Part shown: positions 41,946 through 46,800 of the stretch, piece after piece
Position numbering within the stretch: the first letter of the stretch is position 1
Layout of the letters: the number at the start of each line of letters is the position of its first letter
Source of the DNA: Anaerolineae bacterium
GTDB lineage: Bacteria; Chloroflexota; Anaerolineae; Aggregatilineales; J027
Direction of reading: 5' to 3'
DNA length: 64,000 nt
Assembly: GCA_019913005.1 (NCBI GenBank)
Contig: JAIOHL010000356.1
Coordinates: 1 to 64,000 of the forward strand
Made by a program: the position numbers and the translations under genes
The notes under the pieces: model-generated
The model's database searches: none
Seen by the model: only the letters and a program-made list of their open reading frames with translations
What the model was told of the DNA's origin: nothing

Positions 41946-44756
41946 TTAGACCACGACACTAATCATCTTGCGATCAGCGATATAGATGACCTTGCGCGGC
42001 TGCTTACCTTCCAAATATTTCTGGACGGCAGGCGAGGCCAATGTGTATTGCGTCGCCTCTTCCTGTGTAACCCCGGCAGGCACAACGATACGGTCACGCA
42101 CCTTGCCGTTCACTTGTATCACCAATTCAATCTCATCCTCGGCGGCAATTGCGGCGTCATACACGGGCCATTGCTGATTATGGATGCTGTAGGGTTGGCC
42201 CATGCGTGTCCATAACTCCTCCGTGATAAATGGCGTCACCGGAGCCATCAATTTCAGCATGGTTTCGACGGCTTCTTGCCATGCTTCTACACTCACATCG
42301 CCCGCCCGTTGGATGGCATTCTTAAATTCCATCAGCCCTGCCACCGCCGTATTAAAGCTGAATGCGCCCATATCATCAGTAACACGTTTGATGGCCTGAT
42401 GTGCCTTACGTCGCAGATCACGATCCGCTTTGGCAGTATCTTCACCAGCCACAACCGCCAGTGGGCCAGCGTGGACAATATTCCATACATCCTCCAGCCA
42501 GCGCACGACACCCTTGATACCCTGACTATCCCATGGGCCGCCTTTTTCCCAGCGGAAGGCAAACATCATATAGGCGCGGGTAGTATCCGCCCCATACTGC
42601 TCCACAATCTGATCGGGGTTGACCACATTGCCTTTGCTCTTGGACATCTTTTCTACGTCCAAACGATATTTAATCTGGTCAATGCCGCCGCCTACCCCAA
42701 AGCCAGCGATTTCAAAAATGGTGTCCGGGCTAGTTTCGACAATCACATCCCGGCCTTCGGATGTTTCAATGGTCAGGGTATTCTCACTGCGTTTGGTTAC
42801 TTCACCCACAACGATTGTCGCACTGGCCGAGGGTGCATCCTCAAATGAGCCAATGACAGCCACGTCATTAGCCATGAACTTGTGCCCGGCATAATCGCCC
42901 GACGCCACAATGATATGCCCATCGCGGGGTTCACCCAAAATGATGCCCTGATTGCGCAGGACAATCATCGGTTCATTGAAAATACGCTCAATTTCGACCT
43001 CGGTTGCCCCGTTTTGGCGCATTACAGCGATGGTATCATCAAAAATGCCACAATCACGCATGGCTTTGGTGAAATAGCGTGTGTACAACAGGTGCATCGT
43101 GGCGTGTTCAATCCCACCCGTGTACGTATCTACTGGCAGCCAATAAGCTGCTTCTTGTGGATCAAAGGCCTCATCATTATCCCATGGGCTTAGATAGCGA
43201 TATTGATACCATGATGAACACATAAAGGTATCCATCGTATCCGTCTCGCGTTTGGCCGGGCCGCCACACTTGGGACAGGTCGTATTTAAGAAACCGGGGT
43301 GCGAACGCAGTGGACTTTCACCCGTGGGCATAAATTCCACATCATCCGGCAGCAGTACGGGCAGATCACTTTCAGGGACAGGCACTGCCCCACAGTTATC
43401 GCAGTACACAATTGGAATGGGGGCACCCCAATAGCGCTGACGGCTGATTAGCCAATCGCGTAGGCGGTAGTTAATCCCCAGTTTGCCGATCTGATTATCT
43501 TCCAGCCATGCCGTCACCGCTTTGATACCGGGGTTTTTGCTGCCCTTCTCTTCATTCACAGGGGTGCCATTGAATGGGCCGCTGTTGACCATCACGCCTG
43601 ACCCTGACCACGCTTCGGGCATGGTATCGCCATTCAGCGGGTCAACGCCTTCGGGCTGAATCACCGGGATAATCGGCAGGTTGAATTTGCGGGCAAAAGC
43701 GAAGTCGCGTTCATCGTGGGCTGGCACTGCCATAATCGCCCCTGTGCCATAGGTCAGCAGCACATAATCGGCAATCCAAATTGGAATCCGTTCCCGATTG
43801 ACCGGATTAATGGCATAGCCACCTGTCCACACCCCCGTTTTTTCTTTCCCTTCGGCGGTTCGGTCAATTTCCGACTTGCGTCCAGCCGCCTCAATATAAG
43901 CCGCCACTTCATTTTGTTGGGCTGGCGTCGTCACCTTTTGTACCAATGGATGTTCGGGAGCCAACACCATAAAGGTCGCCCCCCACAGCGTATCGGGTCG
44001 GGTGGTAAAAATCTCGATGGGGTCTTCATCTTCGGTCAGGAAGGTGACATAGGCCCCTTCACTGCGTCCGATCCAATTTTCCTGCATAAACCGGACACGC
44101 TCCGGCCAATCAATCTTGCTGTAATCCAGCAGTTCTTCGGCATATTTGGTAATGCGGAAAAACCATTGGTCTAGGTCTTTCTTGATGACGGGTGTCCCGC
44201 AGCGTTCACAGACGCGATCTTCGCCAACAACCTGCTCACGTGCCAACGTTGTATTACAGTTCGGGCAGAAATCCACCGATGACATTTTCTTATAGGCTAG
44301 GCCATTTTCATAAAACTTGAGGAAAAACCATTCCGTCCATTTGTAGTATTCGGGGTCGCAGCTAATGGCCTCACGTGACCAATCAAACATCGCCCCCATC
44401 TTTTTCATTTGACCTTCCATCCGCTTGATGTTGGCATACGTCCATGTTTTGGGATGGATACGGCGTTGAATGGCGGCGTTTTCGGCGGGCAAGCCAAACG
44501 CATCAAAGCCCATCGGGAACATTACATTGTAGCCCTGCATTCGCATAAAACGGGCACGTGCATCGGAGGGGGCCATTGGATACCAATGACCAATATGCAG
44601 GTCGCCGCTGGTATAGGGCAGCATCGTCAGCGCATAATATTTAGGGCGGCTGTGGTCAATTTGGCTGCGATACAGTTCATCTTGCTCCCATTTTCCGCGC
44701 CATTTGGCCTCTACTTCTGACGGGACATAGGTCATCGTTTTTTGCTGGTCAGTCAT
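41946..44756 (-). CDS. leuS: Leucyl-tRNA synthetase
   Basis: 936 residues, slightly long for bacterial LeuRS. The class I signatures are the HIGH-type YTSGDLHIGHWYPM near residue 50 and VEKMSKSKGNVVNP near 690. A zinc motif (FCPNCNTTLA, CERCGTPVI), the CP1 editing domain and a leucine-specific insertion before KMSKS are present. It charges tRNA-Leu. I use the second in-frame ATG (44756) because GGGAG would be 6-7 nt upstream; ATG 44762 is too close. The gene lies downstream of a leucine-specific T-box leader that contains a tRNA-Ala gene, followed by an extra terminator just before leuS. Confidence 0.96.
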   Translation of the reverse strand: MTDQQKTMTYVPSEVEAKWRGKWEQDELYRSQIDHSRPKYYALTMLPYTSGDLHIGHWYPMAPSDARARFMRMQGYNVMFPMGFDAFGLPAENAAIQRRIHPKTWTYANIKRMEGQMKKMGAMFDWSREAISCDPEYYKWTEWFFLKFYENGLAYKKMSSVDFCPNCNTTLAREQVVGEDRVCERCGTPVIKKDLDQWFFRITKYAEELLDYSKIDWPERVRFMQENWIGRSEGAYVTFLTEDEDPIEIFTTRPDTLWGATFMVLAPEHPLVQKVTTPAQQNEVAAYIEAAGRKSEIDRTAEGKEKTGVWTGGYAINPVNRERIPIWIADYVLLTYGTGAIMAVPAHDERDFAFARKFNLPIIPVIQPEGVDPLNGDTMPEAWSGSGVMVNSGPFNGTPVNEEKGSKNPGIKAVTAWLEDNQIGKLGINYRLRDWLISRQRYWGAPIPIVYCDNCGAVPVPESDLPVLLPDDVEFMPTGESPLRSHPGFLNTTCPKCGGPAKRETDTMDTFMCSSWYQYRYLSPWDNDEAFDPQEAAYWLPVDTYTGGIEHATMHLLYTRYFTKAMRDCGIFDDTIAVMRQNGATEVEIERIFNEPMIVLRNQGIILGEPRDGHIIVASGDYAGHKFMANDVAVIGSFEDAPSASATIVVGEVTKRSENTLTIETSEGRDVIVETSPDTIFEIAGFGVGGGIDQIKYRLDVEKMSKSKGNVVNPDQIVEQYGADTTRAYMMFAFRWEKGGPWDSQGIKGVVRWLEDVWNIVHAGPLAVVAGEDTAKADRDLRRKAHQAIKRVTDDMGAFSFNTAVAGLMEFKNAIQRAGDVSVEAWQEAVETMLKLMAPVTPFITEELWTRMGQPYSIHNQQWPVYDAAIAAEDEIELVIQVNGKVRDRIVVPAGVTQEEATQYTLASPAVQKYLEGKQPRKVIYIADRKMISVVV

Positions 44757-44784
44757 CGTCATCTCCCTTTACTTATAAAAATGC

Positions 44785-44818
44785 AACAAAAAACCGCACG
44801 GTTTGGGCCGCACGGTTC
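44785..44818 (-). terminator. Terminator directly upstream of leuS
   Basis: On the minus strand AACCGTGCGG and CCGTGCGGTT form a 10-bp stem (two G-U pairs) with loop CCCAAA, followed by TTTTTT. It ends 28 nt before the leuS start, so leuS expression must read through it or use a start inside this gap (TATAAG-like at about 44774). Confidence 0.75.
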
Positions 44819-44858
44819 TTGAAAGTTCCCGGTTAAGTGTCTGAAGGGGGCTGGTCGC

Positions 44859-45005
44859 TTAACGTTTATCTAAGCGGCGTGAACGCTCCCGCACTGGAAT
44901 CGGTTGAGGAACAGGCGGCGTCGGTTGTAGTATTCTACCAAGCGTATTAAGAAGCTCCCGCAGGCGGTCAGCGAAACGAGTATTATTTTCAGCTTTCTTG
45001 CTCAC
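44859..45005 (-). CDS. 48-residue ORF between the T-box and leuS
   Basis: GTG start at 45005 with AAGGAG 6 nt upstream. The peptide has a Leu-rich amphipathic helix (RFADRLRELLNTLGRIL), a Pro-rich stretch (PTPPVPQPIP) and a very basic tail (RERSRRLDKR). A longer frame to 45068 would start within the -10 of the local promoter. It could be a real small protein or a leader peptide for leuS; five Leu codons in thirteen are suggestive but not a classic run. Confidence 0.5.
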   Translation of the reverse strand: MSKKAENNTRFADRLRELLNTLGRILQPTPPVPQPIPVRERSRRLDKR

Positions 45006-45066
45006 GGCACGCTCCTTTGACAGGTAAGATTCAAAGCCGCTAGTTTTTACCGATGATGTTAGAAAC

Positions 45067-45097
45067 ATTATAAAGGCATTTCTTGCAAAATGGTCAA
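45067..45097 (-). promoter_or_regulatory. Internal promoter downstream of the T-box
   Basis: Minus-strand TTGACC (45092-45097) and TATAAT (45067-45072) with a 19-nt spacer. It lies after the T-box terminator and would drive the 48-codon ORF and possibly leuS without T-box control. Confidence 0.5.
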
Positions 45098-45144
45098 TTA
45101 TTTATAATATTTTGATGTGATGTGTGTCACATTTCTTTCGTTAG

Positions 45145-45229
45145 TAAAAACAAAAATCCCTTTCATCTACCCCATCAAGCCATTTTTAGCTGACAGGAAC
45201 GAAAGGGATTTCGCGGTACCATCCTGATT
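45145..45229 (-). terminator. T-box antiterminator and competing terminator
   Basis: Minus strand. Antiterminator: CAGGA/UCCUG, 7-nt bulge UGGUACC, then GCGAAA/UUUCGU with loop UCCC. This is the canonical T-box arrangement, and UGGU pairs with the ACCA end of an uncharged tRNA. The competing terminator pairs AAATCCCTTTC (45201-45211) with GAAAGGGATTT (45154-45164), followed by a T-rich tail. The two folds share bases and exclude each other. Confidence 0.9.
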
Positions 45230-45251
45230 GATGACAATTCTCTAACAAATT

Positions 45252-45327
45252 TGGTGGACCTGAGGGGATTCGAACCCCTGACCTCTTCAATGCCATTGAA
45301 GCGCTCTCCCAGCTGAGCTACAGGCCC
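45252..45327 (-). tRNA. tRNA-Ala(GGC), CCA encoded
   Basis: Acceptor GGGCCTG/CAGGTCC with the G3-U70 identity pair, TA at 8-9, D stem GCTC/GAGC, anticodon stem CTTCA/TGAAG with loop ATGGCAT (anticodon GGC), T arm AGGGG-TTCGAAT-CCCCT, discriminator A and encoded CCA. Every canonical position is intact. The gene sits between stem II and the antiterminator of a leucine T-box on the same strand. GATGA just before it and TCATC just after it (plus-strand 45331-45335 and 45230-45234) could close it as a stem. Confidence 0.96.
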
Positions 45328-45535
45328 ATATCATCCACTTAATTGCCGCGTAACGTGCGCTTTTACGGCACAGCCTACTTTATCATTTCACCTGTGCGGC
45401 TCCGGGGCGAGTTTAGCCTTTTATGGTGTGTGTCGAATCCACCATTGTCGGGTTTCCACCATCCCCAACTCGCTGCAACACTGGCCTACTATTCCCCTTC
45501 AAAGCCATTGGCATATCAATTTGTAAGGTACAAGG

Positions 45536-45565
45536 ATTTTAAACGTCGTGCCCAGCCATTGTCAA
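45536..45565 (-). promoter_or_regulatory. Promoter of the T-box/tRNA-Ala/leuS leader
   Basis: Minus-strand TTGACA (45560-45565), 18-nt spacer, TAAAAT (45536-45541). Start of transcription near 45529 gives a 200-nt leader ahead of tRNA-Ala, just covering T-box stems I and II. Confidence 0.8.
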
Positions 45566-45573
45566 GGTTTAGT

Positions 45574-46800
45574 TTAGGGTTGTGGCGTAGTTGAGGTTGC
45601 GAACAATTCAGTCACCAGCGCCAAAATATCACTCACGATGGGTACGAGAATATCTTCGCCATTTGGCCCAACCTGCGGAATGGCCTCCCCATAAGTAATC
45701 GAGCCATTTTTGATATTCTCACGCGGGATTTGCTCGGCTACCAATGCTAGTTCCAATAGCTCTTGGAACGTCATATCGGTCTGGGCATTGGCGCTGACCG
45801 ATTCCCAAATAGTCTGTGCCTCAGAAAACAACCCCGTCGCCCCACCCAATGACATCAACTTCTCACGCACCGCAAAAATCACCTCTTGCTGACGGGCGGC
45901 CCGGTCAATATCACCCTTTTCGGTGGCACGGGTACGCGCATATTCCAACAACCGCTCGGCAGGGAGATTTTGACAACCCGCATCGAAATGCACTGGGCGA
46001 ATACCGTAGCTCCCATCAGGATATTTGGGGTCATCAATCGGCGCAGGTGGGCAAACTTCCACCTCCCCAATCGCGTTGACAAAGGTGATAAAGGCATCAA
46101 AGTTAATCATGATATAGTAATCAATGTTGATGCCGATGAGTCCTTGAATTACCTGTTTGACATATTCCGGCCCCCCACCGGGATACTGGATGCTCTCACC
46201 GACAATATTGGCCGTGTTGATTTTGCCCTCGCTCCCAATGCTCGGAAACGTCACATAAAGGTCACGGGGGATGGACAAAATCGCCCCCGTCTTGGCAAGC
46301 GGATTCAGGCTCAACAGCATAATGGTGTCCGTCGGAAACGGCCCGGTTTCGCCCTGCCGCTGGTCAATGCCAAGCAGCAAAATATTGACACGGCGCGGGT
46401 CTGCTAATTGATAATCAATGGGATTGAGACCAGCCTCTGTCGTTGCAACTTCCGTACTCACCGGGTCGGGGGTTGCCGTCGAATCGGTTGGGATGGGTGT
46501 GCCATCTACCGCAGGGGTTGTTGCATCAGATGTAACTTGTACGGTAGGCTGAATGATGATGGGCGGCGGTGTCACATCTGTGCCAGTACCGGGGGCTTCG
46601 GGTTCTTTTAATCCCAACAGCAACTGAGCCACGCGGACGACATCTACACCCTCTTCCAATGGAGCAATTTCGTTGAGTTCTTCCGTTCGGGTACGGGCCT
46701 GCGAATAGGTGACTACGCCAGCCGCGACAGTGCCGACCATCGCCACAATCACCCACACCATAATCACCCATAGTGGTATACGCATCAAAATTCGCTCCAA
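45574..46800 (-). CDS. LCP (LytR-CpsA-Psr) family protein
   Basis: 408 residues: one N-terminal TM (about 8-30), a Thr/Pro-rich extracytoplasmic linker (about 60-125), then the LCP domain with VNILLLGIDQR, FPTDTIMLLSLNP, AILSIPRDLYVTFP, KINTANIVG and EYARTRATEKGDIDRAARQQ. The Arg and Asp residues that bind polyprenyl pyrophosphate in this family are present. LCP enzymes attach glycopolymers to the cell wall or to protein. With PBP1A and the GT39 genes it points to active wall-glycan assembly. It ends just before the T-box promoter. Confidence 0.92.
   Translation of the reverse strand: MERILMRIPLWVIMVWVIVAMVGTVAAGVVTYSQARTRTEELNEIAPLEEGVDVVRVAQLLLGLKEPEAPGTGTDVTPPPIIIQPTVQVTSDATTPAVDGTPIPTDSTATPDPVSTEVATTEAGLNPIDYQLADPRRVNILLLGIDQRQGETGPFPTDTIMLLSLNPLAKTGAILSIPRDLYVTFPSIGSEGKINTANIVGESIQYPGGGPEYVKQVIQGLIGINIDYYIMINFDAFITFVNAIGEVEVCPPAPIDDPKYPDGSYGIRPVHFDAGCQNLPAERLLEYARTRATEKGDIDRAARQQEVIFAVREKLMSLGGATGLFSEAQTIWESVSANAQTDMTFQELLELALVAEQIPRENIKNGSITYGEAIPQVGPNGEDILVPIVSDILALVTELFATSTTPQP

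Follow-up and report, generated by a model that had tools for sequence, protein, structure and literature searches.

In the accepted mechanism of T-box riboswitches, a single tRNA bridges two halves of one RNA. T-boxes of the transcriptional leuS type (RF00230) consist of a stem I with S-turn and Leu specifier, stem II and stem IIA/B, a stem III with RRRxG and AA motifs, an antiterminator with the bulge UGGUACC and a competing terminator, and have leuS downstream. The two purine motifs that flank stem III form part of the aminoacylation sensor (PMC7583486). The same review mentions, for every domain of the T-box, insertions whose structure and function are unknown, and the words 'tRNA gene' are not used in it (PMC7583486). 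Nor did we find a tRNA gene inside a T-box described in the literature searched, which included PMC2494555, PMC7778990, PMC7583486 and PMC12452182, though large T-box surveys may mention one. The locus analysed here lies on the minus strand of a 64,000-nucleotide stretch from an Anaerolineae bacterium (contig JAIOHL010000356.1, positions 1 to 64,000; hereafter the window). It shares all of the above parts with the leuS T-boxes, but differs from known RF00230 members in that a complete tRNA gene for another amino acid fills the loop of stem III. With an ordinary tRNA-Ala(GGC) gene (RF00005) it has the complete cloverleaf, G3-U70 and A73 in common; unlike such a gene, no promoter of its own was found, its 5' leader is the stem I domain of the T-box and its first terminator is that of the T-box. 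We consider it probable that the two make up a compound transcription unit, in which a transcription-terminating T-box specific for leucine carries an essential tRNA-Ala(GGC) gene in its stem III loop (Table 1).

Table 1. Features of the tRNA-bearing T-box locus and its downstream genes (positions as numbered in the window)
Feature	Position	Strand	Basis
Promoter-like TTGACA-18-TAAAAT	45536..45565	-	promoter scan, 11/12 consensus bases
Whole T-box leader, tRNA as insert	45192..45511	-	RF00230
T-box stem I, S-turn AGUA and specifier loop	45398..45506	-	RF00230 alignment; present in relatives
Specifier CUC (Leu; cognate tRNA-Leu GAG)	45409..45411	-	RF00230 alignment
Stem II and stem IIA/B region	45351..45397	-	RF00230 alignment
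5' purine motif AAGUG (RRRxG), ahead of stem III	45336..45340	-	sequence
Stem III 5' arm GAUGAUA	45329..45335	-	RF00230 alignment, fold, anchored pairing test
tRNA-Ala(GGC) in stem III apical loop	45252..45327	-	ARAGORN; RF00005
Stem III 3' arm UGUCAUC, then AA at 45228-45229	45230..45236	-	RF00230 alignment, fold, anchored pairing test
Antiterminator hairpin, bulge UGGUACC at 45215-45221	45194..45226	-	fold; RF00230
Competing terminator hairpin and U run, first terminator past the tRNA	45150..45214	-	fold
Small ORF, 48 aa, between T-box and leuS	44859..45005	-	ORF; conserved in order
leuS, leucyl-tRNA synthetase	41946..44762	-	ORF; TIGR00396, 964 bits

The covariance search with RF00230 matched all 219 model positions (81.7 bits, E 4.2e-18) and thereby recovered the stem I that the initial annotation had recognised by inspection. 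The other parts it had named, in the order in which it had named them, were borne out as well: promoter, Leu specifier and stem II region by promoter scan and RF00230, the complete tRNA-Ala(GGC) by a tRNA finder, covariance model and sequence, both alternative hairpins by folding, and leuS by its protein family. The T-box score falls below the curated RF00230 gathering cut-off of 93, leaving the locus absent from a default Rfam scan. In the RF00230 alignment, an 85-nt insert made up mostly of the tRNA-Ala(GGC) sits in the hairpin ahead of the antiterminator, and we read the shortfall as the presumed cost of this insert and not as absence of the fold. The tRNA itself, with complete cloverleaf, GGC anticodon, G3-U70, A73 and encoded CCA, is called in full length by ARAGORN and is matched by RF00005 at 45255-45327 (65.9 bits). 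Both hairpins of the switch fold: the antiterminator with its 7-nt bulge reaches -8.8 kcal/mol (z -1.48), and 17 of 200 shuffled sequences do as well; the terminator that competes with it reaches -31 kcal/mol (z -3.88), and none of 200 shuffled sequences does as well. The mutually exclusive pair looks canonical. The promoter-like match was the sole site in a scan of 44740-45640, which found no second one ahead of the tRNA; taken alone the match is weak because the shuffled region gives 1.3 such sites on average, and the promoter and terminator scans were crude, the T-box terminator itself having been missed. The specifier CTC agrees with leuS, with a small ORF intervening in the window. A cognate tRNA-Leu(gag) with A73 was found at loci of the same genus (L233/L234), and the same core motif at G000:C60:98870.

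One suggestion of the initial annotation, namely that the tRNA fold replaces stem III, had to be given up. The order AAGUG-GAUGAUA-(U-tRNA-15 nt)-UGUCAUC-AA, which follows from the sequence and the Rfam alignment, places the tRNA in the apical loop of stem III; this stem has 7 bp, and the purine motifs on both sides of it are preserved. The same nesting comes out of the minimum-energy fold of the window leader, though with the D arm misfolded; the stability of the whole leader does not exceed that of shuffled sequence (z 0.79), nor does that of the tRNA plus flanks (z -0.22). Among homologues, a helix of at least 5 bp that abuts both purine motifs is present in 88 of 118 loci, whereas 200 arm swaps gave 16% on average and 23.7% at most (five loci were left out of this anchored test, having no AA anchor or too short an upstream sequence). 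Anchored in this way, stem III shows several pair types per position and reaches at least 4 bp in 97/118 loci and 8-11 bp in 28/118, with 30/118 below 5 bp. Over 120 loci, arms of the same locus outpair arms of different loci (15.85 versus 12.09, z 17.9), in a comparison that ignores relatedness. Stem III hence covaries across the tRNA, so that both T-box halves are constrained to a single structure, and replacement of the stem by the tRNA is rejected for the window and for most loci, where it is kept by compensatory changes. A tRNA in the place of stem III is possible for some members of family f8, whose stem III is weak and seemingly worn down. When the search was not anchored, the best tRNA-flank helix in the window and two relatives of its genus was another one of 7 bp, GGCAATT/AATTGTC, which would compete with stem III. 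We also rejected as a conserved mechanism that the ACCA of the embedded tRNA occupies the UGGU bulge in cis; CCA is encoded in 78/123 loci only.

How widely the arrangement occurs was followed with a pattern scan that required the A73-bearing 3' end of a tRNA and, after it, a T-box antiterminator; the scan covered 84,980 species with one genome each and returned at least 119 stretches. Among the matches listed, ARAGORN placed tRNA-Ala(GGC) ahead of the antiterminator in 103 of the 119 and called no tRNA in 15 and a tRNA-Leu in one. The latter (L196) was discarded, being no T-box by eye, with an antiterminator-like string that belongs to a tRNA-Leu repeat, and no other credible tRNA was found at this place among the matches listed, given a pattern that requires A73. 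The 15 stretches without a call include one cut by the locus edge (L124), one with the 3' half of the tRNA only (L165), two T-boxes without tRNA (L134, L172) and a random match (L112). Downstream, leuS follows in 98 of the 103 loci among the matches listed, the remaining five stretches ending 63-1139 nt later; its distance from the antiterminator in these 98 is up to 200 nt in 66, 201-700 nt in 17 and more in 15, and in many Clostridia-type loci leuS begins about 40-70 nt past the antiterminator.

An exact version of the pattern, which recovers 122 of 123 known unique loci, found the composite in at least 47/400 genomes of the window's phylum and at least 53/249 of the phylum of Syntrophomonas wolfei, and read backwards it gave no match in the same 400 and 249 genomes. 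Broadened to any CCA-ending tRNA and any bulge base, the search of the latter 249 genomes gave 49 matches, 47 of them already known and two (G644, G696) in which the 3' strand is of the same Ala type; its backward reading matched once, in G716. Neither the A73 pattern, among the matches listed, nor the encoded-CCA pattern brought up other tRNAs in T-boxes, and chance adjacency is rejected on the 103 same-isoacceptor cases among the matches listed, the genome counts and the backward control. By their record labels, which come mostly from metagenome bins and may individually be wrong, the carriers among the matches listed belong to Chloroflexota, Thermomicrobia, Bacillota (Syntrophomonas, Desulfofundulus, Symbiobacterium, Thermaerobacter and others), Coprothermobacterota, Caldisericota, Armatimonadota and Actinomycetota, with one carrier each labelled Proteobacteria and Desulfovibrio. 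A tree of LeuS (117 rows, among which L172 is not LeuS-like at 23% identity) broadly tracks phyla, with 5 changes for Bacillota versus 30.5 when shuffled and 7 versus 25.2 for Chloroflexota; nearly all of its rows from outside the window's order carry the composite. Within that order, 58 regions upstream of leuS hold the composite in 29 cases, a tRNA without T-box antiterminator in three and no tRNA-Ala(GGC) in the other 26 stretches examined, some of which are ended by contig ends. Since T-box and tRNA can occur apart, their joint presence in many lineages is noteworthy. A comparison with relatives was what the initial annotation had named beforehand as able to refute it, and this found both order and pairing conserved in many lineages.

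After removal of 9 duplicates from 132 composites we retained 123 unique loci, drawn partly from among the matches listed, and G3-U70 together with A73 is present in every one of them. A CTC-specifier pattern lies upstream in 111/123, seven more were assigned by eye, four are cut by an edge and one (L212) is ambiguous. The specificity of this pattern is incomplete: of the 118 loci whose upstream sequence spans 150 nt or more, 110 have it when read forward and 28 as reverse complement, against a mean of 14 (maximum 28) after shuffling. For eight further loci from other lineages, the Rfam T-box spans the tRNA in all eight (E 5.8e-7 or better) at 119.7, 105.5, 94.7, 93.7, 82.4, 73.2, 70.4 and 46 bits, four of them above 93. 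At L121, L131 and L188 the tRNA shows under the tmRNA model below cut-off, and ARAGORN calls it tRNA-Ala(GGC). Stem I can be very short, its distal part missing by eye, at tRNA-bearing T-box loci labelled Coprothermobacterota (L131, 2087-2325) and Caldisericota (L158, 7219-7455).

As for copy number, the embedded gene is the sole GGC match found in 5/5 genomes of the window's genus, where other matches with one mismatch have other anticodons, and this argues that the tRNA must be processed and used in translation. Forty further carriers have one GGC match in 38 genomes, two in G076 and none in G080, whose own embedded tRNA does not fit the search pattern; that the single copy is the embedded one was confirmed by coordinates for G061 and G089, and all these counts allow one mismatch and come from genomes that may be incomplete. 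Other tRNA genes were seen close to T-boxes: at L190, L191 and L145 the T-box holding tRNA-Ala(GGC) is closely preceded by a second tRNA-Ala, whose anticodon reads CGC by eye, so that one leader region has two alanine tRNAs, and in the window's genus (L001 1418-1731, L009, L010, L011, L017) a tRNA-Thr(CGT) stands about 10 nt upstream of another T-box. The latter is the best-scoring T-box of the window's genome, and the ORFs downstream of it at L001 are by eye methyltransferase-like, then ValRS-like.

How might such a unit work? RNA polymerase starting from the promoter would make stem I, then the tRNA and then the antiterminator/terminator region. Uncharged tRNA-Leu(GAG) would bridge the CUC specifier and the UGGU bulge of the antiterminator for read-through, while charged tRNA-Leu would let the terminator form, and we infer that this decision falls co-transcriptionally on nascent, uncut RNA. 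Because transcription reaches the tRNA ahead of the terminator, all transcripts contain the tRNA regardless of leucine status, a consequence of the order of parts that the initial annotation had already raised as a possibility. With leucine present, the unit would behave as a plain tRNA gene that borrows the terminator of a T-box, and under leucine shortage the same transcript would run on downstream; RNase P and 3' enzymes would then excise tRNA-Ala from short and long transcripts alike, once the decision has been made. It is plausible, as the initial annotation proposed, that T-box control would act only before processing; cleavage by RNase P ahead of the decision could in principle occur. 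The arrangement may have been kept largely as its tRNA is usually the sole one for the anticodon and the stem III loop tolerates inserts, and the simplest cause of conservation would be that loss of the tRNA is not tolerated and its relocation is rare.

A more far-reaching version sees an ancient class of nested genes, in which an essential tRNA parts sensor from output, RNase P ends the switch, frees tRNA-Leu and sets the 5' end of leuS mRNA, and one promoter has tied the supply of tRNA-Ala to that of leucyl-tRNA synthetase since before the split of several phyla; we regard this as tentative and on balance unlikely. Rather unlikely, too, is a model that makes processing a second input to the switch. 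Here the RNase P cut at the 5' end of the tRNA would be in competition both with the decision of the T-box and with decay of the mRNA. It would part sensor from output, free tRNA-Leu and give the leuS mRNA a structured 5' end, and the switch would in this way be tuned by RNase P capacity. Cleavage ahead of the terminator stabilises the mRNA of the Bacillus subtilis thrS leader, a precedent in its favour, and all 123 unique loci, which come from many lineages, have a tRNA and with it a substrate of RNase P directly ahead of the antiterminator. Against this, stem III has a median of 6 bp in 118 carriers and 6 bp in 53 tRNA-less T-boxes picked by a rough script (p 0.77); not being longer in carriers, it gives no sign of being built to hold cut halves together, and no adaptation to cleavage is seen. 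A further argument against a processing input comes from family f3 of the same order, whose leuS-region T-boxes share the CTC specifier (by eye) and the stem III motifs with the window but have a short stem III loop and no tRNA, which means that the switch does not need the tRNA. In two f3 genomes (G039, G051) the GGC tRNA-Ala and leuS are on different contigs, and several members have by eye a cupin-like gene between T-box and leuS. Short reading frames with Leu codons (LLALR-like, by eye) were noticed ahead of leuS at L090, L091, L105, L106 and L110 of families f3 and f5; perhaps they are a second, peptide-based attenuator.

For the window's own lineage, the target of the switch deserves separate thought. 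The small ORF between T-box and leuS, of about 45-50 aa and with the pattern RLRELL..L.RLLNPP..PVPVR, is conserved in the window's order and matched no Pfam family over its cut-off in three versions searched. A promoter-like TTGACC..TATAAT stretch precedes it at about 45097-45062 (found by eye, as the spacer limit of 16-18 in the scan missed it), and a terminator-like hairpin (44789-44820, minus strand) follows it, just ahead of the leuS start. Together these elements suggest that control of leuS may be partial here, and one could go further and have the T-box govern the small ORF, with leuS using other signals. That the ORF also occurs in G022, G026 and G031, where no T-box or tRNA was seen ahead of leuS, would fit such a role; the ORF, however, seems to own a promoter and leuS is the common downstream gene in other lineages, which makes this option improbable to our minds.

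Very improbable is a riboswitch in two pieces, whose halves stay joined via stem III after excision of the tRNA and keep sensing tRNA-Leu in trans. Stem III does covary across the insert and attains the above 8-11 bp in a subset of loci, but past the terminator no transcriptional decision is left to make, and T-boxes that are not split have helices just as long. The idea that the T-box is a relic or chance neighbour and the tRNA gene alone matters, for which one may cite the tRNA ahead of leuS without T-box antiterminator in G014, G017 and G045 and the f3 T-box without tRNA, is hardly credible given that many lineages preserve the specifier, the bulge, the purine motifs and stem III and that 103/103 credible tRNAs at this place, among the matches listed, are the same isoacceptor.

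Returning to the compound unit we favour, the halves that one tRNA is to bridge here flank another tRNA that requires excision, which renders the order of decision and cleavage testable, and one short RNA must serve as both sensor and tRNA precursor. It also suggests that stem III tolerates a folded domain of 76 nt. For annotation, it follows that such leaders can escape covariance searches at curated cut-offs, the window being a case in point, and that a regulator can be hidden where a tRNA is annotated beside leuS. The locus offers an example from nature of a riboswitch that houses a tRNA gene nearly indispensable to the cell.
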